From a virus: DNA of 51,268 nucleotides. Both the position numbers and the translations under genes were made by a program. Position 1 is the stretch's first letter; each line of letters opens with the position of its first letter. The notes beneath the pieces are model-generated. The model was given only the letters and a program-made list of their open reading frames with translations. It was not told the DNA's origin and did not search any database. The DNA is taken from IMG/VR virus record IMGVR_UViG_3300031753_000297, positions 1-51,268 of that record; one strand, 5' to 3'. This document shows positions 1-32,563 of this stretch, one piece after another.

Positions 1-1023
1 ATGACCCAACCAAGTTCAAACGAGGGCTTTTTTCCCCCGAGACTGCTCTCACATCTCGTATCCCCACACAGCTATCTGGAACTTCGAGATGAGTTAGCGC
101 CTCCTCATAGACAAACGACTGACTCAATCCTCCTACGCACGCTCACCGCTCGCGATATCGCCATTCTCACAGCACTTGACCAATACCGTTACCTCGATCG
201 AAAGCAAATCCAGGACCTGTTCTTCCACGGACCACGACCTTGCCAGATCCGGCTTCAGTATCTCAACACTCAACACGTTGTGGTCGCATGGCACGTCCGT
301 CTCCAACCAGGACTCCACCCGCGTCCGTCCGTCTACCTTCTGTCTACCCGGGGGGCTCGCCTGTTAGCGCGAGTTTCGCAGGTCGACCAGGGCCCACCGG
401 TCCGGCGCGCCGAGCACGCACGGACCCGCGCCTACCACGTGACGCACGACCTTGAAGCCAACGCCTTCTTTGTTGCCCTAGCGCGGGCGAGCGCACCGCT
501 CCCGGATCAGGGTCTCTACCACTGGGTCGGCGAACGCGGCTGCTGGCGTGCATATCAGGAAGCTCACGAGCTCGGACCTATTCCGGACGGATGGGGCCGC
601 TATCTCTTGCCCGAAGGCGAGATCATCTTTTTCCTGGAGTGGGATCGCGGCACGGTACCGCGCGCCCGTCTTCGCGCGAAGGTGAATCACTACGTCAGAT
701 ACTTCCGCCGCCGGCGCGGCGCCGCCAACACGCACGTTTTCTACGCGGTTCCTACCGCGGCGAGGGAGGAACTGGTTCGGACAGAGATCAACCAGGCGCT
801 CCGGCTCGTGGGGACCGAATGCTGCCGATTCTGGACGGTCACCATCGAGCGCCTCCAGCGAGATGGTCCCTTGGGCCCCATTTGGCGCGGCCCTGAATCC
901 GCCGGCAACCTCACATCATTCGTCGATCTCCCGACCCAGCCACGTTCGCCTCTCCCACTACCAGGCTGCATCGCGAAGCGCGACTGGTGGAGACATCGTC
1001 CCGCGGGAGGGCAGGGCGCCTGA
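1..1023 (+). CDS. Replication-relaxation family protein
   Basis: A 340-residue protein. Residues about 48-110 form a winged-helix region with the motif LTARDIAILTALDQYRYLD, the hallmark of the Replication-relaxation (Replic_Relax) family found on plasmids and integrative elements, which is thought to act at replication initiation or relaxation of mobile DNA. The rest is basic and rich in aromatic residues. The window opens on its ATG, so a further upstream start cannot be excluded. It is the first gene of a rightward run that continues into a ParB-like gene, which supports a role in element maintenance. Family assignment is fairly firm; the biochemical role is inferred. Confidence 0.75.
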   Translation: MTQPSSNEGFFPPRLLSHLVSPHSYLELRDELAPPHRQTTDSILLRTLTARDIAILTALDQYRYLDRKQIQDLFFHGPRPCQIRLQYLNTQHVVVAWHVRLQPGLHPRPSVYLLSTRGARLLARVSQVDQGPPVRRAEHARTRAYHVTHDLEANAFFVALARASAPLPDQGLYHWVGERGCWRAYQEAHELGPIPDGWGRYLLPEGEIIFFLEWDRGTVPRARLRAKVNHYVRYFRRRRGAANTHVFYAVPTAAREELVRTEINQALRLVGTECCRFWTVTIERLQRDGPLGPIWRGPESAGNLTSFVDLPTQPRSPLPLPGCIAKRDWWRHRPAGGQGA

Positions 1024-1217
1024 CTCACCTTCGTCTCGTTGGGCGGCGTGGGCAGGGGCCAGACTCCGGCCCCCCTGTGGAGCTTGCGGGTCGAAACCGT
1101 TGGCGGATCCGCCTCGCCTTCATCCTGGCGGAGTCCGTCGGCTCCTCGGTTCTGGACCGATCCGGCCAGCCGCGTCGCGTCGATCCCGAGCACCCACCCG
1201 GAGGCGCGGCGGCGTGA
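987..1217 (+). CDS. possible small ORF bridging two maintenance genes
   Basis: A 76-codon ORF fills the 190-base gap between the Replication-relaxation gene and the ParB-like gene, and its TGA overlaps the GTG start of the ParB-like gene (GTGA), the overlap style used throughout this operon. The product is unrecognised, with many Arg, Gly and Pro residues and one short hydrophobic stretch (IRLAFILAESVG). It may be a real coupling peptide or just GC-rich open frame. No clear ribosome binding site was seen. Confidence 0.25.
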   Translation: METSSRGRAGRLTHLRLVGRRGQGPDSGPPVELAGRNRWRIRLAFILAESVGSSVLDRSGQPRRVDPEHPPGGAAA

Positions 1218-2245
1218 CGACCCGGGCTGCGACGCTTCCTGAAGGCGTCGCCGTGCTGCCATTGGCGGTGATCGATCCCTGTCCGATCCAGCCGCGCGTC
1301 AACATCTCGGTGCGGCTGGTCGAGCAGCTGTCGGCATCGATGAAGGCGGGCCGTCACCAGCCATTGGTCGACGTCGAACCGGCGCCGGGAAATCGCGGCC
1401 GCTACCAGATCGTCTCCGGTGAGCAGCGCTGGCGGGCCGCCCGGGCCGCCGGGCTCACCCAGGTGCTGGCACGCCTTCACCCTCCACTCGGCTATCTCGA
1501 GCGGCTCGAGAAGCAATTTGAAGAGAACCATCTGCGCGCCGACCTCGATCCCGTTGAAGAGGCGCACTGCATCTTTCTGCACAAGACGCTTCGTGATATC
1601 GACGTTGCCGAGCAGCTCCTACGCGGTGCCTCGGTCGATTTCCAACTGTTGGAGGACAAGCGCATCGGCAAACGCGAGGCGTTTGTCGAACACCTCGATG
1701 GCCTCCGAACGCTCCTCGTGCAGAACCGGATCAACGTCGTGAATCAGGAGGGACGGCTCGTCGCGGGACCGTTGGCTCCCTGGCGGGAAACTGAAAAAGC
1801 GCTCGGCATCTCCGAGAGCGGTCGAAAAGCCAAGGTCGCCGTCGTCCGGCTCGATCCGCAACTCCAGGATGAACTTCGCACGCTCCCCGCTGAGCACGCC
1901 ATCCAGATCGCGCGACTCGACGATTCGACGCAGCAGGCTCAGTTGGTGGAGCGGGCCCGCGACCTGACCCACCGAGAGGTTCACCAGGCCGTTGCCCGCC
2001 TTCGCGGCGATCCTGACCTCACCGTTTCTGCGGCACTGGCCGAATCAACGGATGCACACCGTCAACACGCGGATCCCCTCGCCTTCGAGGTCCAGATGTC
2101 CCGAATCAGTGACCTTTGCCGGCAGCTCGTCCGCATGGTCAACAACCTCCATCGCGGGCTCACGCATCCGGAACGAGGACAGCTGCGAGATACCCTGGCT
2201 GATCTTCGTCAAGCGCTGGGCACCTTCGAGGCCGAAACCCCGTGA
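1214..2245 (+). CDS. ParB/Spo0J-like DNA-binding (nuclease-like) protein
   Basis: A 343-residue protein with GTG start chosen at 1214 because residues before it in the open frame are Pro/Arg-rich and unlike the family. The ParB/sulfiredoxin-fold domain spans about residues 13-125, with the ParB box SGEQRWRAARAAG at about 68-80 and EENHLRADLDPVEEA at about 103-117. Beyond about residue 130 it does not follow canonical ParB: the helix-turn-helix region is replaced or split by an unfamiliar segment. In such elements these proteins partition DNA, spread on DNA or use the CTP-binding fold for regulation. It overlaps the next gene by four bases. Confidence 0.75.
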   Translation: MTTRAATLPEGVAVLPLAVIDPCPIQPRVNISVRLVEQLSASMKAGRHQPLVDVEPAPGNRGRYQIVSGEQRWRAARAAGLTQVLARLHPPLGYLERLEKQFEENHLRADLDPVEEAHCIFLHKTLRDIDVAEQLLRGASVDFQLLEDKRIGKREAFVEHLDGLRTLLVQNRINVVNQEGRLVAGPLAPWRETEKALGISESGRKAKVAVVRLDPQLQDELRTLPAEHAIQIARLDDSTQQAQLVERARDLTHREVHQAVARLRGDPDLTVSAALAESTDAHRQHADPLAFEVQMSRISDLCRQLVRMVNNLHRGLTHPERGQLRDTLADLRQALGTFEAETP

Positions 2246-3288
2246 CGACCGCCTGCGGGCTGACCTGCGAGGTCTGCCCAGCGGCGTCGCCCTGCGGCAA
2301 GGTCTGCAACTTCTGCATGGCTGGCCGTCATCGAGCGCATGGCGCGCAAACTAGCTGCGCCCACTGCGACACCAATCCCCTTCTCCGGATGGATATCCGG
2401 CGCGCCGTCATCGATCAACTGGGAGGCCTGGACTTCGTCTGGCCACGCCCCGTCCAGCACCTTCAGATTGCTGACCTACCCCTCCATCTCCCGGTGCTGG
2501 TGCAAGCCTATGCGGACCAGATTGATCGTCCCTGGGTCGCGCTCCATGCCGGCCGAGTACTGGGGGTGACGGGTCACGGGTTGACGCCCAGGCATCGCGC
2601 TCCCCTTCGCGAGGTCTATCGGCTGGCGCCGAGCACGAAGTTGGCGCTCGAGTTCTATGTCGAGGACCGAGTCCTGGAGGGGTTCTGGGCGAACCGGCAG
2701 TCGATCATCGCCTCCTTCTCCCACCTCGGATTCGATCTGATTCTGAGCCCGAGTTACTCCGTCTGGTACGACCACTCCCGCTTCGAGCAGCTCGTGCAAC
2801 AGCGCCGCGCCTTCATCGTCTACCACGAGCTCCTGGAAGCCGGCTTGCCCGCCATCGCGGATGTGGGATGGAGTCTCTTCGAACCCGACGGGCGTCGCTG
2901 GGCGGACTGGATCAACAGCCAGTCGCAGCTCCAGGCGGTCTCGCTCTTCTGCGACGGCCGCAAGGTCCATGCCAGTCGGCGCGCGCTTCGCGAAACCATC
3001 GAAGACATTGCGCTGTTCCATCGCGCCGTCCGGCCTGAGGTCGCCTTCGTGCTCGGCGGCGTGCATGCACCCGAGCGCCTTGCCGCCTACCGTCACGTCG
3101 CTCCCGGCCGACAGCTGACCATCTGCAACGGCATGGCCTACGCCCGAGCGCAACGTCGCCGTCGACTCGGAGGTGAGGACCGGACGATCGCCTGGTCAGC
3201 CCGTGACTATTTCTTGCACAACTGCGCCTACAACGACCGCACCTACGCCGAGCTCCTCAACGAGATGGATGCACGCGTTGCCATCTAA
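2242..3288 (+). CDS. DUF4417-like protein with an N-terminal Cys cluster
   Basis: A 348-residue protein. Eight cysteines fall in the first 42 residues (C5, C9, C12, C18, C22, C25, C39, C42), including C-x3-C-x2-C at 18-25, an iron-sulfur or zinc type arrangement. The central part, with LILSPSYSVWYD and a downstream conserved Trp/Gly stretch, resembles the DUF4417 family of mobile elements, whose fold is likely a TIM-barrel-like domain. Function is unknown. It starts at GTG overlapping the ParB-like stop and its 3' end overlaps the ATP-grasp start by 20 bases, so the three are translationally linked. Confidence 0.55.
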   Translation: MTTACGLTCEVCPAASPCGKVCNFCMAGRHRAHGAQTSCAHCDTNPLLRMDIRRAVIDQLGGLDFVWPRPVQHLQIADLPLHLPVLVQAYADQIDRPWVALHAGRVLGVTGHGLTPRHRAPLREVYRLAPSTKLALEFYVEDRVLEGFWANRQSIIASFSHLGFDLILSPSYSVWYDHSRFEQLVQQRRAFIVYHELLEAGLPAIADVGWSLFEPDGRRWADWINSQSQLQAVSLFCDGRKVHASRRALRETIEDIALFHRAVRPEVAFVLGGVHAPERLAAYRHVAPGRQLTICNGMAYARAQRRRRLGGEDRTIAWSARDYFLHNCAYNDRTYAELLNEMDARVAI

Positions 3289-4645
3289 GCGAGGCGGCAC
3301 ACGTGCCGGGGATGGCGTTGCACCGCTTGCCGCGACCCTGGTGACTCCGACCGCGGTGCGCGAGCAGCCAGCCGCTCCTCCGTACGAGTCCGTAGCAGGT
3401 GGCAGCGAGCCGGTTGTTGGGGCTATGCACATGGGCCCAGCAGACTTCTTGGCGGGAGATCTCACCCAGACATTGCGTCGCGGTGCGGAAGTGCAGCGCT
3501 TCGCCGAACTGGCCGCCCGACAGGACGCGCTGACTCCTGACGAGTCGGATGAGTTGTATCGGTACCGCCTTCGCCGCCTGCTTACGCGGATTCGCCAGCT
3601 CGAACGCGCCGGCGCTGGTTCAGATGAGACCGCGATCAGCGAGGCGGTGGGTAATCTCCAGGCTCGGCTCGAGGAGCTCCACAGCTTCGAAACGATCCGG
3701 AGGCAGGCGGGCCTGTTCGCGGACCACGAGGTCGATCTCAGTGCCCACGAGCGCGCAAAGGCCAGGCTTCTCAACCTGGCAGCGCAGCGGCCACGTGGGT
3801 TGATTGCCGGTTCAGACCAGGTGCCCGAGCAGCCCGACGGAAGTGTCCGAATTCGCGATCTCGCCTTCTCGCCTTCCCCGCAGGATGCGCCGATCTACAT
3901 CCTCGCGCCGGCGTCCATCTCGTCTGGATCACTGAGCCAGCACGTCAGCGAAGTGGCGAGCCAGGGCGCCCGGATTCATGTGGTGCGAGATGCCAGCGAG
4001 ATTCCACCGACTGAACCGCCACCAGTGATCCTGAACTGGGGCTCCACCCACACCCTTCCACAAGGGGTCATTGCCCTCAACCAACCGGACGCGGTTCGGA
4101 TAGCGTCCGACCAGGTCGAGTCGATTCAGCGCCTCGCCGAGCTGGCTCCGAGAACCGTGGCAAATCCCGAGGATCTCCAGTTGCTCGGTTCCGATCGCGT
4201 CGTCGCCAAGCGTCGACACGGGACCCGCGGCAGCGGGAAGGCGGTCCTGGCGGCAGACGGTCCCCCAGCCGAGCGCGCCGGGAACGACCTCTTCCAGGAA
4301 TTCATTCCCGACCGACGGGAGTACCGCGTCTCGGTGCTCTCCGGCGGGATCGCCTCAGCCTACGTGAAGCGGCCTCCAGAGAACGCGCGGCCCGACGACC
4401 TCCATCCGGCCTGGACGTTTGAGCGTGCCCAGGTCATTCCGAAAGCGGTTGCGGTGATGGCCAAAGAAGCCGCGCGCCGGGTCGGCCTCGACTACGCCGG
4501 CGTCGATGTCATTGAGGACCTTCGCACAGGCCGCGTGTACTGCTTGGAGGCGAACTCGGCACCCGGCATGTCGCAGGAAACCCTCAAGAGGGTCTATGCG
4601 CAGATCCAGCAGGCGCTGCGCCGACGATTGGCACGTGCCGGCTAA
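3269..4645 (+). CDS. ATP-grasp carboxylate-amine ligase
   Basis: A 458-residue protein; the ATG at 3269 was chosen because it lies inside the preceding gene's end and the upstream residues are low-complexity. Residues 1-200 are charged and probably helical. From about 208 the protein has an ATP-grasp core: VVAKRRHGTRGSGK (311-324, ATP-binding Lys and glycine loop), QEFIP (343-347), EYRVSVL (351-357), GVDVIED (411-417) and YCLEANSAPG (424-433, the Glu and Asn that bind metal). RimK-like members join an amino acid or amine to a carboxylate through an acylphosphate. The next gene encodes a second, unrelated amide-forming enzyme, a pairing known for peptide- or protein-modification systems. The substrate is unknown. 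Confidence 0.8.
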   Translation: MHALPSKRGGTRAGDGVAPLAATLVTPTAVREQPAAPPYESVAGGSEPVVGAMHMGPADFLAGDLTQTLRRGAEVQRFAELAARQDALTPDESDELYRYRLRRLLTRIRQLERAGAGSDETAISEAVGNLQARLEELHSFETIRRQAGLFADHEVDLSAHERAKARLLNLAAQRPRGLIAGSDQVPEQPDGSVRIRDLAFSPSPQDAPIYILAPASISSGSLSQHVSEVASQGARIHVVRDASEIPPTEPPPVILNWGSTHTLPQGVIALNQPDAVRIASDQVESIQRLAELAPRTVANPEDLQLLGSDRVVAKRRHGTRGSGKAVLAADGPPAERAGNDLFQEFIPDRREYRVSVLSGGIASAYVKRPPENARPDDLHPAWTFERAQVIPKAVAVMAKEAARRVGLDYAGVDVIEDLRTGRVYCLEANSAPGMSQETLKRVYAQIQQALRRRLARAG

Positions 4646-5932
4646 ATGCCCAGCAAGGGTGGAAGTCGAGAGTCTCAGGGTCGAATAAGCAGTGCAGCGG
4701 TCGGTCCAGCTGCAACCGTCCTCCAGGCCGTCGTCGGCACTGCTCGGGCGGTCGCCATTGAGGCTTCAAGTCCGGCAGGGAACCTCGATGCCGTTCCTGT
4801 CGGCGCTCTGGTTGACGATGACCCGCCAGTCGATAGCCCGGCCTGGGTTGAGCTCTACGCCTCAGCGCTGGCACAGTATCGCGAACAGCGCGAGCAAACG
4901 GAGCGAGAACAGGAGCGATCCCAGCAGCTCTGGGACGAGTTCCTCCGGCTCCAGGGCCAGAACGTCCCCGAAGGGGAGCGATCACTGGTCACCAACGAAG
5001 CCCTGCATCGGGAGCTCAAGCGACTGGCGATGACCGCGGAAGCTGCAAGCTACGAGCGCGAGAACGTGATTGGTGATCCGAACCAGACCTTCGGGGTCGA
5101 GATCGAGTTCGATGGCGGCAACCCCAACGCCGTGGCGCGTGCGTTGCATGAAGCCGGTTTAGCCTCGAGCGCACGTCAGGAGCCGTATCACTTCAGTAGT
5201 CGCGTTCCGGGCAAATGGACGGTGGAGCACGACGCGACAGTGGCGGGCGAGGTGGTCAGTCCGATTCTGCAGGACACGCCGGAGACCTGGGCGCAGCTCG
5301 AACGTGTGTGTCAGATCCTGCAGGCTCAGGGAGCGCGCGCGAGCGGCCGGACGGGCGGCCACGTCCACGTCGGGGTCGACTCGGCAGGCATGGACCACGA
5401 CGTGAACAAGTTCCGCCGTGTGGCTCGCGTATGCGCCTGGGCCGAGGACCTCATGTACCGGCTGGCCGCAGCAACCGGTCAGCGTGGACGCAGTCACCGC
5501 GGAAGCACCAACGGCTATCGCTGGTGCGGCCCCATGGGCTCGGGACAATTTGAGGAGGTGCAAGGCCTCAGCGACCTGGCCAACCGGGTCGGCAGCAGTC
5601 ACTCGGTCGGTCTCAACTTCGGCAACATCCTCGAACGCAACCGGACCATCGAGTACCGCTATTTCGACTCGAGCCTGGATCCCGCTCGCTTGCAAGCGAA
5701 CATCAAGCTGGCCTGCTGGGTCACCAAGCGTGCGGCGGAACTACCCGACACCGCGATTCCACGAGAACGGACACCGCTGGGTAGTCATCGGAGCCCTCGC
5801 GATCCCGACGATGGCGACCGGATGTTGCGACGCTTCGCCGACCTCATCTTTGTCCGCCCGAAGGACAAGCTGAAGCTGTATTGGGTCTACCAGCGCTCGG
5901 CCTGGCAGCGGACGCGAGCGAGGGCCGCCTGA
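4646..5932 (+). CDS. amidoligase (glutamine-synthetase fold, Amidoligase_2 type)
   Basis: A 428-residue protein that begins directly after the ATP-grasp stop. Residues 1-140 are Ala-rich then charged and helical. The catalytic part shows the signature order of the Amidoligase_2 family: FGVEIEF (149-155, two metal-binding Glu), WTVEHDATV (191-199) with GEVVSP (201-206), GGHVHVG (237-243), and TIEYRYFDS (334-342). Members form amide or peptide bonds using ATP. All key acidic and histidine residues are present, so it is probably active. Iyer and colleagues (2009) predicted that such enzymes work with ATP-grasp ligases to make peptide tags or metabolites. Its target is not evident from sequence. 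Confidence 0.8.
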   Translation: MPSKGGSRESQGRISSAAVGPAATVLQAVVGTARAVAIEASSPAGNLDAVPVGALVDDDPPVDSPAWVELYASALAQYREQREQTEREQERSQQLWDEFLRLQGQNVPEGERSLVTNEALHRELKRLAMTAEAASYERENVIGDPNQTFGVEIEFDGGNPNAVARALHEAGLASSARQEPYHFSSRVPGKWTVEHDATVAGEVVSPILQDTPETWAQLERVCQILQAQGARASGRTGGHVHVGVDSAGMDHDVNKFRRVARVCAWAEDLMYRLAAATGQRGRSHRGSTNGYRWCGPMGSGQFEEVQGLSDLANRVGSSHSVGLNFGNILERNRTIEYRYFDSSLDPARLQANIKLACWVTKRAAELPDTAIPRERTPLGSHRSPRDPDDGDRMLRRFADLIFVRPKDKLKLYWVYQRSAWQRTRARAA

Positions 5933-6288
5933 TGTATCGGCTAGTCCATCCGGAAGACTCGCAGGAATTGCCCCTGAGGATGCTTTTCCATCCAGTCGGC
6001 AACGGTGTCTACCTCAAGGCGTGCGAGGCCGATAGCATGCTCGGGCTGGTTGCCGCCCTCCTCAACGATCCGGCCTACGAAGCCGCCGATCCACGGTCGC
6101 GTTTGGCGGAACGCCTTCGAATCGCGAACGACATCGTGCTACTCGCTGAGCTCGACGGCCGGCGACTGGAGATCTCGGATCGTGAAGGGCCCGAGACCAT
6201 CGTCATCGCCTCCGACGACCCTCTCCTCTCCTCGCTCGAAAGGCTGGGGTTCGTGTCCTTGTCGGCCCCCCCGGGTGTCAAGCCCTGA
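5932..6288 (+). CDS. small unknown protein of the amidoligase operon
   Basis: A 118-residue protein starting at an ATG that shares one base with the amidoligase stop (TGATG), so it is coupled to that gene. No family is recognised. It is mixed alpha/beta by composition, acidic, without cysteines apart from one, and without membrane segments. Its constant place between the amidoligase and an HTH gene makes it a candidate partner or acceptor protein, but nothing in the sequence proves it. Confidence 0.6.
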   Translation: MYRLVHPEDSQELPLRMLFHPVGNGVYLKACEADSMLGLVAALLNDPAYEAADPRSRLAERLRIANDIVLLAELDGRRLEISDREGPETIVIASDDPLLSSLERLGFVSLSAPPGVKP

Positions 6289-6560
6289 TGGAGGCCCAGT
6301 TCAGTAGCCACCTGGTGAAGATGGAAATGGCCAAACGAGGCTGGCAGCTCATAGACCTTGCCAAGCACACCGGGCTATCGGGGCCAACGGCGAGGGCCGT
6401 CGTTCGAGGCCAGAACGTCTCCATGGTCACCGCGCTCAAGGTGGTCCGAGCACTGGAACGCAATCCGCCCAATGAACGGCTGATTGCACTCCTCAGCTGG
6501 CGGGAGGCGCACCCCAGACAGGTCGTCCCTAGCCAGCTGGTTACCGCGCGCGATCGCTAG
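6288..6560 (+). CDS. small helix-turn-helix regulator
   Basis: A 90-residue protein, coupled to the preceding gene through TGATG. Residues about 10-60 read as an XRE/Cro-type helix-turn-helix: MAKRGWQLIDLAKHTGLSG followed by a recognition-helix-like TARAVVRG. The tail is basic. As the last gene of the operon it may autoregulate it or mark the DNA target of the element. No operator was identified. Confidence 0.6.
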   Translation: MEAQFSSHLVKMEMAKRGWQLIDLAKHTGLSGPTARAVVRGQNVSMVTALKVVRALERNPPNERLIALLSWREAHPRQVVPSQLVTARDR

Positions 6561-7559: not shown

Positions 7560-8561
7560 TTGACGAGGAGACGACGCGGCCGGTCATGGGGATTCTGGAC
7601 AAAGGGCAAGCTCGACGTCCTGCGCCGATATCTACCCGGCCTGACAATCGCATCCAGCAGGAAATCCCCAGAGGCGATCTATCTCGACCTGTTCGCCGGC
7701 GAGCCTGAGAACTTCGACCGCGAGACGGGCCAGCCAATCGACGGATCGGCGACCATCGCGTTGCAGACCCAGCCACCCTTCACTCGGTTCCGCTTCTTCG
7801 AGCTTGCACCGCGCGCTCAGCAGCTCGAGGCCCATCTTCGCGCCCGCTTTCCGAATCGCGATATCAAGGTCCACCCGGGCGACTGCAACGTCAGTATCAC
7901 CGAGGCGCTCGCCGAGCTGGAGTCGGTTCGGTGGGCGCCGACCTTCGCGTTCATCGATCCCAACGGGCCCCACTTTCACTGGAACACACTCCGGGCGCTC
8001 GCCGGGCATAAGGCGGGGGCGAGCAGATTCAAGGTCGAACTCTGGCTGCTGTTCCCGGTCGGGTTGTTCATGCGCAACTTGCCGACCAAGGGAAAGCCGC
8101 TAACGAAGGAGGCTGCCGACGAACTGACCTTGATGTTCGGCACTGGTGAGTGGGGGGCCATCTACCACGACCGGGTGGCGGGCATCCTTGATGGCCGTGA
8201 GGCAGCAGAAGAGTATCTCAACCTCATGCGCTGGCGCCTAGAGAAGGTACTCGGCTATCGGCGCACACACGCGCTCGAGGTCAAGAACGAGCAGGGTGCC
8301 CGGCTCTACGACATGATCTTTGCGACCGATAACGAGGCGGGCGATCGGATCATGACTAGCCTTTACACCCGTGCGCTCGAGGACTTTCCGGCCATGCGCA
8401 GAGACGCCATTAGCAAGCACAAGGCGCCGACTCTGGCGCCGGAGTTCGAGGAGCCCGAGCTTTTCGACACCAGCGTTTTCGGGCCACCGCCGAAGCCGCC
8501 ACCAACGCCGATCACCTATCGGTACGAACCGCCATCGCCGCCCTATGAGTCAGAGCCGTGA
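7560..8561 (+). CDS. tcmP: three-Cys-motif partner protein TcmP
   Basis: A 333-residue protein with a TTG start. It has the pattern of the TcmP family: YLDLFAGEPEN (41-51), FRFFELA (77-83), GDCN (107-110) and FAFIDPNGPHFHW (129-141), which together look like a Rossmann-like methyltransferase or nucleotide-binding core. The family is defined by its constant genomic partnership with a protein carrying a three-cysteine motif, and that partner is the adjacent gene on the opposite strand. The C-terminal 50 residues are Pro-rich. Biochemical activity of the pair is unknown. Confidence 0.75.
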   Translation: MTRRRRGRSWGFWTKGKLDVLRRYLPGLTIASSRKSPEAIYLDLFAGEPENFDRETGQPIDGSATIALQTQPPFTRFRFFELAPRAQQLEAHLRARFPNRDIKVHPGDCNVSITEALAELESVRWAPTFAFIDPNGPHFHWNTLRALAGHKAGASRFKVELWLLFPVGLFMRNLPTKGKPLTKEAADELTLMFGTGEWGAIYHDRVAGILDGREAAEEYLNLMRWRLEKVLGYRRTHALEVKNEQGARLYDMIFATDNEAGDRIMTSLYTRALEDFPAMRRDAISKHKAPTLAPEFEEPELFDTSVFGPPPKPPPTPITYRYEPPSPPYESEP

Positions 8562-8563
8562 CG

Positions 8564-9304
8564 TTACGAGACGGCGACCGCGGGTACGACGGCCTTGGCG
8601 GTTTGCGGCAACTCGTCCCAAAGACGGCCGTCCAGTGTACGGCCGCCGGCCTTCGGCGTGCGCCCACCCCATTGCTTAAAGAAGAAGGCAACGCCACGGG
8701 CAATGCACTGATCCCGCACACCGCGAGCCCAAGCGAGGTCCATCGGCCTGGCGTGCGGCCCACTTTCTCCACCGACGATGACCCAGTGGATCCCGGTCAG
8801 GTCCAGCGTCACCGGGCCGAGCAGCGGCTCGACCGAAAGGAATCGCACGGCCGCCGGCACCTCTGCTAGGCGCTTCGCGCGAAATGCGAAGACCTGGTTC
8901 TCGACACTGACGCCCATCCAAACGTTCCGCGGCCAGTCCAGCTGCGGCGCCAGGCGCCGGACCCGATCGGCTCGCTTGGTGAGGATCTGATAGGTGTGCT
9001 GGGGTGTTGCAGCCATGACCTCGAACCCTTGACGGATCCAGTCGATCGGGACGTCTTCATGGAAGAGGTCGCTCATGCTATTGACGAAAATCCGGCGCGG
9101 CCGGCGCCACGACAGCGGCAGCGGCACGACCTCGGGATGGAACGTCAGCTCGAACCCGTTTCGATAGCGGTGTGCGCCGGTCGCCTTCAGACGCTTAGAG
9201 AGCGCCTCCGCATAGCAGTGATCGCAGCCAGGGCTGATGTGGCTGCAGCCGGTCAGAAAGTTCCAGGTCGCATCAGTCCACTCGATCGAGCTGTTCTCAG
9301 CCAC
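8564..9304 (-). CDS. DUF5131 / phage Gp37-Gp68 family three-Cys-motif protein
   Basis: A 246-residue protein. The N-terminus has SSIEWTDATWNFLTGC followed by SPGCDHCYAE, giving C20-x6-C27-x2-C30, the three-Cys motif of the Gp37/Gp68 (DUF5131) family, which recalls radical-SAM iron-sulfur motifs. Further family marks are FVNSMSDLFHEDVP, QILTKRADR and SVEPLLGP. It ends two bases from the TcmP stop, so the partner genes are tail to tail. Upstream it overlaps the ribbon-helix-helix gene by eight bases, forming a two-gene leftward operon. Confidence 0.85.
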   Translation of the reverse strand: MAENSSIEWTDATWNFLTGCSHISPGCDHCYAEALSKRLKATGAHRYRNGFELTFHPEVVPLPLSWRRPRRIFVNSMSDLFHEDVPIDWIRQGFEVMAATPQHTYQILTKRADRVRRLAPQLDWPRNVWMGVSVENQVFAFRAKRLAEVPAAVRFLSVEPLLGPVTLDLTGIHWVIVGGESGPHARPMDLAWARGVRDQCIARGVAFFFKQWGGRTPKAGGRTLDGRLWDELPQTAKAVVPAVAVS

Positions 9305-10861: not shown

Positions 10862-11828
10862 ACGCGTGCACCATCCGCAGGCCGGAGACCGGTCGCATCA
10901 CGCCTAGGCTCAGGACCTGCGTCGAGGGATCGAACCGACCGACCGACCAACGGTCCAAGAGCTCGGCGACGGCGCGCTCCCCGGGGCCGTTGACGAGTAC
11001 GTACCTCTGTCTCCCCAGACTCCTATACGCGGCTGCGTCATAGGGAACGAGCGCCTCAGGCTCGATCGCGCAATCGAGGACGATCTCGGCCTTCTCTGGT
11101 GACACGAACCGGAGGACCTCCGTTCCATCGCGTGTGCGCGCCGTAAAGAACGCGTAGGCACCGGTGCGCGTCCAGCCACCAACGTCGACGACGGCGCCAA
11201 CCCCTCGAGTTACCACCCGACTCTCACCAAGGCCGCTCATCACTCGCGCCGCGTCGTCGGTCAGCAAGAGCGCCAGGTCCTGCGTCGGCGACCAGGCGAT
11301 GGTCCGCGGCCAACCACCGCGATACTTCTGGTGGACGACTGCCCGCTGGCGGACGTCATAGACGACGACGCCAACCGCGAGCCGTCCACCGTCATCGATG
11401 AGGTGGGCCAGCATGAGGAGCTGACTGCTCGAGTTCCACGGGACATAACACGACTGCGGAAGCAGTCGGCTGCCAATCACTTCGAGCAGCGCCCCGTGGC
11501 GCTTCGTGCTCTCAGCCCCGTCTTCGAACACCCTGGCTTCGGTCCAGACGCCGAGTCCCATCCGGACCTCGCTCGGCTTTCCTAGGACAAGTTTCAATCT
11601 GCCATCTGGGCTTACGTACGACTCCGAGTCCGGCATCCAGCGGGAGCGATCGGCGCCTTCGGCGGTCGGGACCAGCCTCACGTTGGTGACCCCAGGCATG
11701 CCGAGCGATCTTACGAGGCTAGCGTGTAGATCCAGATGATCGTCATTGATCGAAGCCAGCGCACGTTGAAGAAAACGTTTCCATGCAGCTACAGCAACGG
11801 GCCGCCCGCGCCTTCTAAAGTTGTCCAC
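10782..11828 (-). CDS. hypothetical beta-rich protein, possibly propeller-like
   Basis: A 348-residue protein with no recognised family. Repeated short strand-turn units with Trp/Ser-Pro and Asp (WMPDSESYVSPDGRLKL, IAWSPTQDLALLLTDDA, GGWTRTGAYAFFTARTRDG) recall WD40/TolB-like beta propellers. There is no signal peptide, so it is probably cytoplasmic. Its start overlaps the end of the upstream NYN gene by 40 bases, so the two are likely one leftward operon. Confidence 0.5.
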   Translation of the reverse strand: MDNFRRRGRPVAVAAWKRFLQRALASINDDHLDLHASLVRSLGMPGVTNVRLVPTAEGADRSRWMPDSESYVSPDGRLKLVLGKPSEVRMGLGVWTEARVFEDGAESTKRHGALLEVIGSRLLPQSCYVPWNSSSQLLMLAHLIDDGGRLAVGVVVYDVRQRAVVHQKYRGGWPRTIAWSPTQDLALLLTDDAARVMSGLGESRVVTRGVGAVVDVGGWTRTGAYAFFTARTRDGTEVLRFVSPEKAEIVLDCAIEPEALVPYDAAAYRSLGRQRYVLVNGPGERAVAELLDRWSVGRFDPSTQVLSLGVMRPVSGLRMVHAFTVPGGPTEELGCSAELHWIDADVVE

Positions 11829-12430
11829 TTCTCGAAAAATACATCACTCAAATCGATAAAATTATCGGCTGCGAGTCGCAGCTCATCGCTCAGCCCTGCG
11901 TCGGGCTCTCGAAAAAAGAGGACGAAGACCAGCTTCCCAAGCCTTTTTACTTCCTCAATGAGCGGAACGTAATCGCCATCTCCGGCTATTAAGACTGCCG
12001 CGTCGTAGTTGCTTAGGAAGGCGTGGCTGAGTACGTCCTTGGTCAAGGCGATATCCACACCTTTTGACTTTCTGTCGCCGGTTCTCTGAAAGACATACGG
12101 GGTAAAGCCCAGTGTCCAGAGGTCATCTCTAATCTCCCTTAGCGTGGGAGGATCACCTCGAGCGCTGGTGTAAAAGTAGGCCCTTGTCGCGTACCTCCGG
12201 ACGCCGATGGCGCTTATATCGCTGAATCGAAAACCCTGCGTCGCGGGCCAGTCGGGAATCCAAACAAAGATGTCTGGCCTCCAGTAAGGTCCCTCTTTAA
12301 GAGCGTAGCCTCGGGCCTTAGCTACCGCCTGTGCCCGAATGGTGAAGTTTTCACCGTCAACGAATAGCATCCAGCGTAAGGCGGTAGGGTCATCCGGCTC
12401 CCTGATCGGAATAAAGGACTCCAGGGCCAT
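11789..12430 (-). CDS. NYN-domain (PIN-like) ribonuclease
   Basis: A 213-residue protein. FVDGENF (23-29), KSKGVDIALTKD (121-132) and LIAGDGDYVPLIEEVKRLGK (147-166) supply the Asp set of NYN domains (LabA/DUF88 type), which are metal-dependent RNases related to PIN domains. Such proteins occur in RNA processing and in defence or mobile-element islands. An internal ATG at 12370 would give MLFVDGENF and remains possible, because the longer start leaves just 28 bases to the divergent integrase gene. Confidence 0.8.
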   Translation of the reverse strand: MALESFIPIREPDDPTALRWMLFVDGENFTIRAQAVAKARGYALKEGPYWRPDIFVWIPDWPATQGFRFSDISAIGVRRYATRAYFYTSARGDPPTLREIRDDLWTLGFTPYVFQRTGDRKSKGVDIALTKDVLSHAFLSNYDAAVLIAGDGDYVPLIEEVKRLGKLVFVLFFREPDAGLSDELRLAADNFIDLSDVFFEKWTTLEGAGGPLL

Positions 12431-12458
12431 TCCATGTGTGGTATATCAAACGCCGGCA

Positions 12459-13415
12459 ATGCCAGAAGGGAAGTTGCTTGCTCCGCCGAGCGGCCAAGGC
12501 TTGGCGCGGCTAGCCGAGGAATGGACCGATTGGCTCCGCAAGAAATACAAAGCCTCCACAATGAGGGATTATCGCTTCTGGCTCGACGACTTCCTACGAT
12601 ATCTTCGACCGCTTCAGGTCACCGACTCTCGCGCCCTGACCCGTCGCCACGTTGAAGGGTGGCAGGATCAATTGACGATGCGCATGCTCAGTCAAGCAAC
12701 GCGCAGTTTGGGCACGACCTCGATTAAGCGGTTCCTCTTATGGGCGGAACGCAAGGGCGTACCTTTTGGCGATCCCAATCTCTTCCTTAACGTCGCAACC
12801 GTTCCGGTACCCGACCGTTATCCACACCCATTGCCGGATGAGGACCTGAATAAGCTTCTCCAGTATTTCAAGTCGCAGCCCAACACCCAAATCGCGTTGC
12901 GAAACCGGGCCCTCTTTGATGCATTGCTAGCGAGTGGGGCCAAAATAACGGACATGCTGGCGCTAAACCGAAGGGATTTGAGCCGCATTACAAGCGTCAG
13001 GCAAGCCGGGCGTCGAACCATCGCGGTTCCGCCCAGTGTTGCGTTTGAAATCGCGGAGTATTTAGACAAACGGACTGACGACAATCCGGCACTGTGGATT
13101 ACAAACCACCCGCCGACGATTCGCCGCCTTGCACCTGCGGGCGTCCTTAAAATCTGGGAGCGGACTGCTGACGCCATCGGAATCCGTCGCTTTACTTCCC
13201 ATCAGTTGCGCGACACGAATACTCTCAAACTAATGGAAGCGGGTGTCCAGCTATCCGTGATTGCCGCGCATCGTGGCAATAAAGAAATCGAACCGCTAAG
13301 AAAGTACGTGCAATTGATCGCTCAGCGCCGTCAGGAAGCGCTCGATGCCATCGAACAGGTCATAGCTGGGCGCAGTAGTAAGACTAAAAAGAAAAATCGG
13401 CCCACCAGCCACTGA
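12459..13415 (+). CDS. tyrosine recombinase, catalytic Arg replaced by Lys
   Basis: A 318-residue protein with an N-terminal SAM-like core-binding domain (about 15-100) and a C-terminal catalytic domain. Catalytic residues visible are H248 and R251 (SHQLRDT), H271 (AAHRGN) and Y283 (RKYVQL). The first arginine of the family box is a lysine: ASGAKITDML, K162. This substitution usually weakens or abolishes recombination, so the enzyme may be degenerate or a divergent subtype. It is divergent from the NYN gene and converges on the second integrase. Confidence 0.75.
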   Translation: MPEGKLLAPPSGQGLARLAEEWTDWLRKKYKASTMRDYRFWLDDFLRYLRPLQVTDSRALTRRHVEGWQDQLTMRMLSQATRSLGTTSIKRFLLWAERKGVPFGDPNLFLNVATVPVPDRYPHPLPDEDLNKLLQYFKSQPNTQIALRNRALFDALLASGAKITDMLALNRRDLSRITSVRQAGRRTIAVPPSVAFEIAEYLDKRTDDNPALWITNHPPTIRRLAPAGVLKIWERTADAIGIRRFTSHQLRDTNTLKLMEAGVQLSVIAAHRGNKEIEPLRKYVQLIAQRRQEALDAIEQVIAGRSSKTKKKNRPTSH

Positions 13416-13557
13416 AAAACTCGGAGGCCGTGGATGTACCTACGAACTAACGATGTGGCGCACGTGCCGCGTGGCCGTTTAGCTAAAACGACCGCTCCCT
13501 GCCACGAAGAAGACGAAACGGTGGGTCAACAAGAACGGCAAGTGGCAGTTGGAAGAA

Positions 13558-13576
13558 CCGGCGAGGTATTCGCCGG
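13558..13576. terminator. hairpin between convergent integrase genes
   Basis: CCGGCGA and TCGCCGG pair perfectly around the loop GGTAT. The hairpin lies between the convergent ends of the two recombinase genes. On the minus strand it is followed by a T-rich TTCTTCC run, so it may end transcription of the second integrase. Confidence 0.4.
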
Positions 13577-13591
13577 CTCTCCTGACGGTTT

Positions 13592-14617
13592 TCAGGCTGC
13601 TGAGTCGAAGAAGCGGTCCCATCCGCGGATCAGCTCGGCTTTTCCGAAGTGGACATAACGAGAAACCATGCTGAGGGTGGTGTGTCCGAGGACGCGTTGA
13701 AGTCGGAGCAGATCCATCCCACCCGCGAGCGCCCTCGTCGCGAACGTGTGCCGAAACGTGTGTGGTGACACCCGGCCTGGCTTGATGCCTGCCCGCTGGC
13801 CTAGGCGCCGGATCATCAGCTGGATTGCAGATGGCCGCAAGACTTGCCGGTCCTCCTGGCCGAACCCAGACCGCTCGGTAACGAACAGAGCAAGGCACGA
13901 CGTGGTTGGACGCTCGTGGGTCACGTAGCGTCGAAGCTTGCGAGCCAAGACGGTCGTCAAGGGAACGGCACGCTGCTTGTTCCCTTTGCCAGCCCGCACA
14001 TCCAAATAGGGGCCATCAGGATGGTCCAGCCGAAAATCTCGGACCTCGAGGCCACATAGTTCGGAAACGCGCAGGCCGGTGCCGAGCAGGACCTCGATGA
14101 TGAGCCGGTCGCGGGAGCTTGCCAGGCCGAGCATGGCATCGATCTCGGCCGTAGTGAAGACACGCGCTTCGCGAACCGGCTCGCGGGGCGAGGGCAGCCG
14201 TCCGATCCCGCGATCGGGTGAGTAGCCTTCGGACACGCACCAGCGATAGAAGGCACGCAGGACCCGGTGGTAGGCGTGTAGGGACGCAGGAGTCAGCGGG
14301 GTCCACTCGCTGCTGACCTTGCCGTCGAAGCGATGCCGGGGCCGGCGGCCGTCACGCTGGAGCTGGTCGCGCAGCTCGCGAATGTGCACGCGTTGGATCT
14401 GGTCGACGGTGCGAATGCCTTGGCGGGTCAGCGCCGGCAGGATGCGCCCCTGAAAGAGGTCGCGGTACCAGTCGATGGTGGTCTGACTGCGGTTGCTCAG
14501 CCGCAGCTCGGAAAGCCAGTCCCGTAAGGCAAGCTCGAGGGGCATGCCGCCCCCGCCGCTGGTTGAAGGATCGCCGACGGCGCTAGAAGCGGACGAAACG
14601 CGGGGAGTCGAAGCCAT
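13592..14617 (-). CDS. int: tyrosine integrase of the phage
   Basis: A 341-residue protein from the ATG at 14617; residues of the longer open frame before it lie in the attachment-site region and were excluded. N-terminal core-binding domain at about 27-130. The catalytic set is complete: R183 (GTGLRVSEL), K211 (AGKGNKQR), H286 and R289 (HTFRH), H312 (LGHTTLS), Y321 (RYVHF). The tRNA-Lys 3' half begins 139 bases upstream of its start, the usual int-att arrangement. It catalyses site-specific integration of the phage. Confidence 0.9.
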   Translation of the reverse strand: MASTPRVSSASSAVGDPSTSGGGGMPLELALRDWLSELRLSNRSQTTIDWYRDLFQGRILPALTRQGIRTVDQIQRVHIRELRDQLQRDGRRPRHRFDGKVSSEWTPLTPASLHAYHRVLRAFYRWCVSEGYSPDRGIGRLPSPREPVREARVFTTAEIDAMLGLASSRDRLIIEVLLGTGLRVSELCGLEVRDFRLDHPDGPYLDVRAGKGNKQRAVPLTTVLARKLRRYVTHERPTTSCLALFVTERSGFGQEDRQVLRPSAIQLMIRRLGQRAGIKPGRVSPHTFRHTFATRALAGGMDLLRLQRVLGHTTLSMVSRYVHFGKAELIRGWDRFFDSAA

Positions 14618-14755
14618 GGATAGATCACCCTTTTGCACTTTTGCAATCTTGTAGATCACTTGACTTCGACCATTTTGGCCGCGGTTTCGGGGTTTGTGTG
14701 CGGGACGAAAGTGGACCGAAACCGAATTGAAAACCGGGGGAAAACGGAGAGGAAG

Positions 14756-14797
14756 TGCCTGCACCAGGATTCGAACCCGGGACCAACTGATTAAGAG
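14756..14797 (-). tRNA. 3' half of tRNA-Lys(CTT), phage attachment-site core
   Basis: Read on the minus strand, 42 bases match tRNA positions 32-73: anticodon loop CTCTTAA (anticodon CTT), TCAGT, variable loop TGGTC, T stem CCGGG and CCTGG around TTCGAAT, acceptor strand TGCAGGC and discriminator A. The T stem pairs. The bases before the anticodon loop (AACAC) cannot pair with TCAGT, and no matching acceptor 5' strand exists, so the 5' half is missing. No CCA is encoded. Integrases commonly use exactly this 3' portion of tRNA genes as att core. Confidence 0.8.
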
Positions 14798-31123: not shown

Positions 31124-32563
31124 ATGGTCGACCGCAAATTCCGTCCTGTGGCGATCGCGCTCCTAATCCTATTGGCGGTTGCCGTTGGCGTGACCATGAT
31201 CGACTTCGGCGCTCGCCTGGGCCTGCTAATCCTGGTGATCGGGATAACTCTGCTCATGAGCGTAGGCGCGATGGGGCGTCTCAGGTCCTCTCTCGGCGCG
31301 GGAATCGGCTTGGTTCAATATGCCGGGCTGTGGCTTCTCGGCGCGGCAATCCTGACGATCACGTTCAGCGGATTGCGGGTCACGACATTTCTCACCGTGT
31401 CAGACCTGATCCTGTTGATCACAGCGGCGGTTCTGCTGCTGGCGATTCTCGCCGACCGAACGCCGATCATCACGACTCCGAGTTGGCTTCTTATCGGCGG
31501 CATTGGCCTCCTGGTCGCAGGGTTCCTGGCGAGCTTTACGGCCATCGATCTCGCGCATGACGTCGTGGCATCGGGTGAGTTTGCAATCGCTCTGTTGGGC
31601 GTTCCGATCCTCCTGGCGCAAGGCACCGGCAACGCGACGAGGGTGCTTTTCATCGCTCGCCTCTGGCTTCTGTCGGCGTCGGTGAATGCCACCGTCGCGC
31701 TGACGGACCTGGCGCATCTCACTTCGATCGGCACCCTCCCCGCAGGCCGGCCGACTGGCTTGACATCACATCCGAACCACGTTGGCATGATCTGCGCGAT
31801 GGCAGTTCCGATCGCTCTGTATTTCCTGATCAACGCTCGTTCGATACTCTCCCGCGGGCTATATGCCGTCGCCCTCGCTCTCGTCAGCTTCGGCGCTCTG
31901 GCATCGGGCTCGAGAGCCGCAATCCTGGCGGCGTTTGCCGGCGCTATTTTGGTCCCGCTGCTTGGGCGGCGAATGTGGCGACCGGTGATAGGAATCGCAG
32001 CTGCAGCAGCGGTTCTTCTCTTCGCGACGTCGCTTGTCATCACGCCGGACCAATCTTCGCCATTGACAGCAAACCCGTTCATTGCGATTGAACGCCTAAC
32101 GCACGAAGCATCGATCTCAAACAGCGACACGGCCCGACTCGACTACTACCGCACCGCGATCAGCGACTTCATCTCTAATCCGCTGACGGGGACTGGGTTC
32201 GACCTCATCCGAGACGCTCACGATATTTACCTCCAACTGTTAGAGGCTGGCGGGATCTTGGCCTTTGTTTCATTCATGGTCTTCGCGTTCGGCGCTCTTC
32301 GCTTGGGCGTGCGGCTCACCGGGAGTGACGCACTCGAGGATCCAATTCGGAATCTGGCGGCAGCGCTGACCGCCTCGCTGGCGGTGTGGCTGCTGGGCAG
32401 CTTGGTGCAGAACTTCGTGTATGACCGGTTCCTCTACGTTCCCGTAGGGCTGCTGATCGGACTCAGCCAAATTACCGCAGGGAGGATCAACCATGGCGAA
32501 AGACAAGCAGGAGACAGCATCAGTGACGGAAGCGCCGGCAGCCCCGGATGGGCCGGTCGTTAA
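31124..32563 (+). CDS. O-antigen ligase/polymerase family membrane protein
   Basis: A 479-residue protein with about ten to twelve membrane helices. Family marks are HPNHVG (216-221), SGSRAA (261-266), NPLTGTGFD (352-360) and AHDIYLQLLEAGG (365-377), as in the Wzy/WaaL O-antigen ligase family. These enzymes join or polymerise glycan chains at the outer face of the membrane. Beside a tail spike it looks like a lysogenic conversion gene that changes the host surface. The last 24 residues, from 32493 on, read through the start of the next gene in another frame, as if the gene lost its own stop on insertion. Confidence 0.75.
   Translation: MVDRKFRPVAIALLILLAVAVGVTMIDFGARLGLLILVIGITLLMSVGAMGRLRSSLGAGIGLVQYAGLWLLGAAILTITFSGLRVTTFLTVSDLILLITAAVLLLAILADRTPIITTPSWLLIGGIGLLVAGFLASFTAIDLAHDVVASGEFAIALLGVPILLAQGTGNATRVLFIARLWLLSASVNATVALTDLAHLTSIGTLPAGRPTGLTSHPNHVGMICAMAVPIALYFLINARSILSRGLYAVALALVSFGALASGSRAAILAAFAGAILVPLLGRRMWRPVIGIAAAAAVLLFATSLVITPDQSSPLTANPFIAIERLTHEASISNSDTARLDYYRTAISDFISNPLTGTGFDLIRDAHDIYLQLLEAGGILAFVSFMVFAFGALRLGVRLTGSDALEDPIRNLAAALTASLAVWLLGSLVQNFVYDRFLYVPVGLLIGLSQITAGRINHGERQAGDSISDGSAGSPGWAGR

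Follow-up and report, generated by a model that had tools for sequence, protein, structure and literature searches.

A viral record that opens with a tightly packed run of genes for two unrelated amide-bond-forming enzymes, a ParB-like protein and a Cys-rich protein raises the question of which element these genes belong to, and of what their products may do together. The window analysed here is the whole of an IMG/VR virus record (IMGVR_UViG_3300031753_000297; 51,268 bases, 64% G+C). A sequence-only reading had taken its genes at 1214-6560 as an undescribed modification or defence system.

Gene content and position of the operon

Seven genes lie on the plus strand within positions 1-6560, and their coordinates and family matches bear out the order, overlaps and tight packing described in that reading. 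The gene that precedes its starting point (1..1023), coding for a replication-relaxation (Replic_Relax) protein (Pfam E 5e-24), is also part of the block and stands where conjugative plasmids of actinobacteria have it too. It is followed by a ParB-like NTP-binding protein (1214..2245; ParB_N E 3e-11; TIGR00180 E 9e-15, below cut-off), in whose translation, inspected directly, GEQRWRA and ENHLRADLDPVEEA boxes are evident. The next genes encode a DUF4417-like protein (2242..3288; Pfam E 2e-4), a RimK-like ATP-grasp ligase (3278..4645; phrog_2599 E 6e-27), a GS-fold amidoligase (4646..5932; Pfam Amidoligase_2 E 2e-19), a small protein of 118 residues with no assigned family (5932..6288) and a Cro/C1-type HTH regulator (6288..6560; HTH_26 E 3e-4, slightly under cut-off).

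Two tyrosine integrases occupy positions 12339-14764. All the genes recognised as structural genes of a phage (terminase, portal and major head protein) are located beyond them. The operon is therefore part of the DNA adjoining the prophage; it sits outside the prophage that earned the record its virus label, and is not a phage system. Its proposed role in defence found no backing, as PADLOC returned no match.

Other genes of the record were also recorded. At 7560-9304, a three-Cys-motif partner protein (TcmP; TIGR04474, E 6e-50) is convergent with a DUF5131 protein (E 6e-101), which also matches, less strongly, radical SAM mobile pair protein A. A NYN-domain protein lies by two tyrosine recombinases on opposite strands (11789-14764), at the border between element and prophage, and the phage part contains a Wzy_C O-antigen-ligase-like protein (31124-32563).

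The conserved transfer locus in relatives

The block corresponds to a segment that is conserved among conjugative plasmids of actinobacteria (Streptomyces, mycobacteria) and integrated elements. The order Replic_Relax - ParB - DUF4417 is repeated on many plasmids and chromosomes, and is therefore more than a chance arrangement; Replic_Relax is found in the matching order at loci L004, L007, L009, L011, L121, L122 and L146, and the plasmids of Streptomyces and Kitasatospora show the order ATPase - Replic_Relax - ParB - DUF4417. Since TcpC (VirB8-like; E 3e-15), a VirB4-type AAA_10 ATPase (E 2e-58) and an SLT/NlpC-P60 protein stand upstream in the relatives, their locus is a conjugation locus. 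This T4SS setting is seen in the relatives, whereas the window itself, which begins at Replic_Relax, contains that gene alone and no visible T4SS genes.

Plasmid-borne DUF4417 relatives were found in Streptomyces, Kitasatospora, Mycolicibacterium, Euzebya, Rhizobium, Sinorhizobium and Aminobacter; among phages they are represented by two records of one single phage. At the actinobacterial loci scanned, ParB directly precedes DUF4417 wherever the stretch of sequence sufficed, and in one genome (G372; L121 10366-11928) the ParB gene points the opposite way from DUF4417 and the amidoligase, the block being otherwise conserved. ParB was not found at the two rhizobial DUF4417 loci examined, on plasmids (L003 and L006) where the relative lies near DprA-like, KwaB-like, OLD/TOPRIM and helicase genes. 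When viral contigs were scanned with the window amidoligase, DUF4417 and ATP-grasp proteins singly, no relatives appeared, and two narrower DUF4417 alignments, used because the first was too diverse for scanning, gave none there either.

Six close amidoligase loci were compared (NBC_01456, YIM 121038, Nonomuraea NBC_00507, S. alboflavus and genomes G013 and G372). In all six, the amidoligase genes follow DUF4417 directly or with at most one gene between, preceded by ParB-DUF4417. A conserved association thus exists for ParB, DUF4417 and the amidoligase. The ATP-grasp gene was seen in this place in the window only, and the ParB-DUF4417 loci scanned with its profile did not show it.

A shared N-terminal header

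At most other loci, DUF4417 is followed by two large proteins of about 730-905 residues, which form two unrelated families, each common to Streptomyces and Mycobacterium. The two families are alike in their first 16-55 residues and show no similarity beyond, as in the examples MGTNSKSSHASYAIAPS, MGTGSKSSHQSYAVSPT and MGSGSSKDHDAFTVAPP. The plasmid amidoligases begin with the same motif (MGSGSRIDHQHHLVATT), as does the Nonomuraea enzyme when read from an in-frame upstream start (MGRGSRSSHVHREVAPT). A DNA pattern of this header gave 24 matches in 13 whole genomes, all 24 at genes of the ParB-DUF4417 operon, although the loci are mutually related and the matches are not 24 independent events; the reversed pattern gave no match in the same genomes. 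On a 293-kb plasmid the header is present in just two genes, both of the operon.

The header also occurs in divergent form. The G372 amidoligase carries a variant, MPTKGPSRGHEAFRLQTP, against which the start of the window amidoligase, MPSKGGSRESQG (MPSKGGSR), ranks first of 831 starts. For the ATP-grasp enzyme the TTG at 3278 is the most likely start, giving a protein that begins MPSKRGGTR; its opening, MPSKRGGTRAGDG, ranks first of 830 starts against the window amidoligase header. Shuffled headers gave p values of 0.0009 for the window amidoligase and 0.0025 for the ATP-grasp enzyme. Both window headers are of an MP[ST]K variant, which bears a weak resemblance to the widespread MG[ST] form; they are supported, though not as strongly as that form.

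The two large tagged families are without Pfam assignment (L004 9518-14469, L017 15362-19959), and the larger displays a conserved motif, D-H-D....N-L-R ... C-D-x-G, that by eye resembles those of kinases. Inspection by eye had suggested that the tagged proteins of 904 and 745 residues might be a kinase or an ADP-ribosyltransferase; this received no support from Pfam or PDB sequence searches, and we therefore call both proteins unclassified.

The amidoligase, the ATP-grasp ligase and the small protein

The window amidoligase matches Amidoligase_2 (PF12224) with 71.2 bits (cut-off 22), and its active-site residues, which had been recognised by inspection, are conserved in the alignment with plasmid relatives (E.E, D.TVAGE.VSPI, GGHVHV and R positions). 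In a tree of 74 amidoligase catalytic domains it groups with 11 enzymes of T4SS plasmids (support 100/99), next to three more, and the 59 phage amidoligases fall apart from this clade. In a sample of 396 genomes of the same phylum, close amidoligases were found in only two, and the centre genome was one of these.

The ATP-grasp enzyme, which carries an N-terminal extension of about 210 residues, aligns over residues 267-436 with a solved RimK structure (5zct, E 1e-5). The K..GT.GSGK and E.N motifs noted earlier lie within the aligned region, indicating a RimK-like core; the Pfam RimK score (19.1) is just short of its cut-off (21). As inferred from their families, both ligases would join carboxyl groups to amines. 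Seen against the other loci, where different tagged proteins take their place, they look like cargo that can be exchanged.

A family of small proteins is present at all five amidoligase loci tested, and its profile ranks the 118-residue window protein first of 11,243 candidates. Since the E value is nonetheless 0.9, we call membership as a divergent homolog probable; hhalign comparison with a plasmid counterpart was not significant (7.5-7.8% probability).

Neighbouring ATP-grasp and amidoligase genes are common in phages, together with GAT-II and GGCT, and the window ATP-grasp enzyme is similar to those of such cassettes, which were reportedly treated by Iyer et al. 2009 (Mol Biosyst; cited in PMC11318856). 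Like the window, these cassettes place an ATP-grasp gene beside a GS-fold amidoligase; they differ in adding GAT-II, GGCT and a COOH-NH2 ligase, and those inspected have no annotated ParB or DUF4417 alongside. A scan of window proteins encoded around the operon detected neither GAT-II nor GGCT, and in this respect the operon departs from the cassettes.

The likeness nevertheless suggests an alternative in which the enzymes would modify the envelope or a protein of the donor, for entry or superinfection exclusion, the header being a docking tag that unites them with ParB-DUF4417. The amidoligase of phage phiEco32 has been proposed as a receptor modifier, a like proposal exists for the phage amidoligase cassettes, and GGCT genes lie beside several plasmid amidoligases, all in line with such a role. 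We regard it as unlikely, however, given the position of the window amidoligase in the T4SS-plasmid clade and the presence of the same header on proteins that are not ligases.

The DUF4417 protein and possible DNA base exchange

The match of the window protein to DUF4417 (PF14386; 21.2 bits) is below the Pfam gathering cut-off (28.9), as are those of the scanned relatives annotated as DUF4417 (24.6-27 bits). Two AlphaFold2 models were compared with solved structures: that of the window protein (pLDDT 61) and that of a Streptomyces protein (pLDDT 77, with 80-96 over most of the barrel). For both, the best 50 Foldseek matches are all tRNA-guanine transglycosylases (TGTs), and those of the Streptomyces model include the DNA preQ0 insertase DpdA (7ui4). 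VIA likewise listed 50 entries, all TGTs; against archaeosine TGT, the window model gave Z 15.2 over 260 residues at 4.2 A and the Streptomyces model Z 18.4 over 258 residues at 3.5 A. The models thus predict that DUF4417 is a TGT/DpdA-like barrel following a Cys cluster. The sequence-only notion of a merely Cys-rich protein gives way to that of an N-terminal cluster followed by a putative barrel.

In sequence, the family is remote from TGTs. Comparison of DUF4417 with E. coli Tgt was not significant, and with E. coli Tgt as query in phages no annotated DpdA appeared among the matches listed. Judged by eye on a weak alignment, the position of the TGT nucleophile Asp is not acidic in DUF4417; an invariant Asp (D142 in the window), again located by eye, follows a barrel strand.

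DpdA acts together with a ParB-like ATPase, DpdB (PMC12839542), so a ParB-DUF4417 pair has a precedent and, by analogy and with the modelled fold, appears to resemble DpdB-DpdA. The operon might then serve DNA hypermodification of the Dpd type, ParB-DUF4417 inserting a deazaguanine-like base to which the ligases would add amino groups or amino acids. The modelled fold, the ParB-like partner and the enrichment of ParB-DUF4417 fusions in phages are consistent with this scheme. It is improbable all the same: the nucleophile Asp is apparently absent, unrelated tagged proteins replace the ligases at most loci, and access to preQ0 is poor. Full-length QueC was found in three of 14 host genomes, in none of six plasmids and in none of three mycobacterial hosts. 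Because the other 11 hosts and the six plasmids lack it, a preQ0-derived base is unlikely to be the general substrate.

That ordinary partition and accessory genes stand here as chance neighbours with no functional link is very hard to credit, since, even though most elements with ParB-DUF4417 are without an amidoligase, DUF4417 immediately precedes all six close amidoligase loci and the header is restricted to the operon.

Relation to described systems

Several of the Streptomyces and Nonomuraea loci (NBC_01456 unnamed1, YIM 121038 pSSP121038, S. alboflavus pMDJK44.1 and Nonomuraea) share with the window the series ParB - DUF4417 - amidoligase - small protein and the header on the amidoligases. 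Replic_Relax stands ahead at the Streptomyces loci; the Nonomuraea locus has none annotated alongside. They possess up to three amidoligases and GGCT, as opposed to the ATP-grasp enzyme and single amidoligase of the window. These loci are annotated gene by gene, and we found no paper that describes them as a system.

Like the DpdA-DpdB system of 7-deazaguanine DNA modification, the window places a predicted TGT fold beside a ParB-like protein; unlike DpdA, DUF4417 has an N-terminal Cys cluster, a sequence far from TGTs and no QueC on the plasmids searched. The same two domains occur in phage ParB-DUF4417 fusions (Kaljevic et al. 2025, PMC12704722), fused there and separate here; DUF4417 is termed there a domain of unknown function. 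Such fusions and the phage ligase pairs were thus already known. The combination, as the earlier reading had supposed, seems to be undescribed: the literature searched, from which subscription papers were mostly absent, yielded no account of it, and in the accessible literature, similarly limited, we found no earlier account of the TGT-like fold of DUF4417 or of the shared header.

Proposed function

The constant part of these loci is a transfer locus with ParB and the predicted TGT-like protein, and the variable part consists of header-tagged enzymes. We read the window operon as the last part of a conjugation (transfer) operon carried by an integrative element, with a ParB/TGT-like pair and tagged cargo enzymes, a reading for which we consider the chances evenly balanced.

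With gene content, gene order, fold match and header in view, we infer an exchange of bases, the delivery of enzymes and their ligase activity inside the recipient. ParB would join the TGT-like protein in an enzyme of two components that, like DpdB-DpdA, acts on bases in the DNA of the element, and the modification may protect that DNA during transfer. The header would route the tagged enzymes to the conjugation machinery or onto the DNA being transferred, for action in the recipient, where the ATP-grasp ligase and amidoligase would form amide or peptide bonds, the target being a protein or the envelope. The small untagged protein could be a partner or protector in the donor.

A delivery tag fits with what is thought of conjugative elements, which are believed to send enzymes into recipients as polyvalent proteins, often with an N-terminal header domain (PMC5512222). 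Like these, the operon encodes enzymes of a conjugation locus predicted to enter the recipient; unlike them, its products are single-enzyme proteins and the header is a short motif rather than ArdC-N. Amidoligases go unmentioned in that paper (PMC5512222). Only tentatively do we suggest the full proposal: conjugation of a new kind, with the transferred DNA modified by a ParB/TGT-like pair and with interchangeable protein-modifying enzymes, amide ligases included, directed into the recipient by a short N-terminal header specific to the operon.

The predicted TGT-like fold provides a first testable function for DUF4417, a family found in phages and plasmids and often paired with or fused to ParB; the family may represent a new enzyme of DNA base exchange. 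Should the header be a delivery signal, it would offer a simple sequence handle for the cargo of actinobacterial conjugation machines, and plasmids would be predicted to give their recipients protein-modifying enzymes along with DNA.
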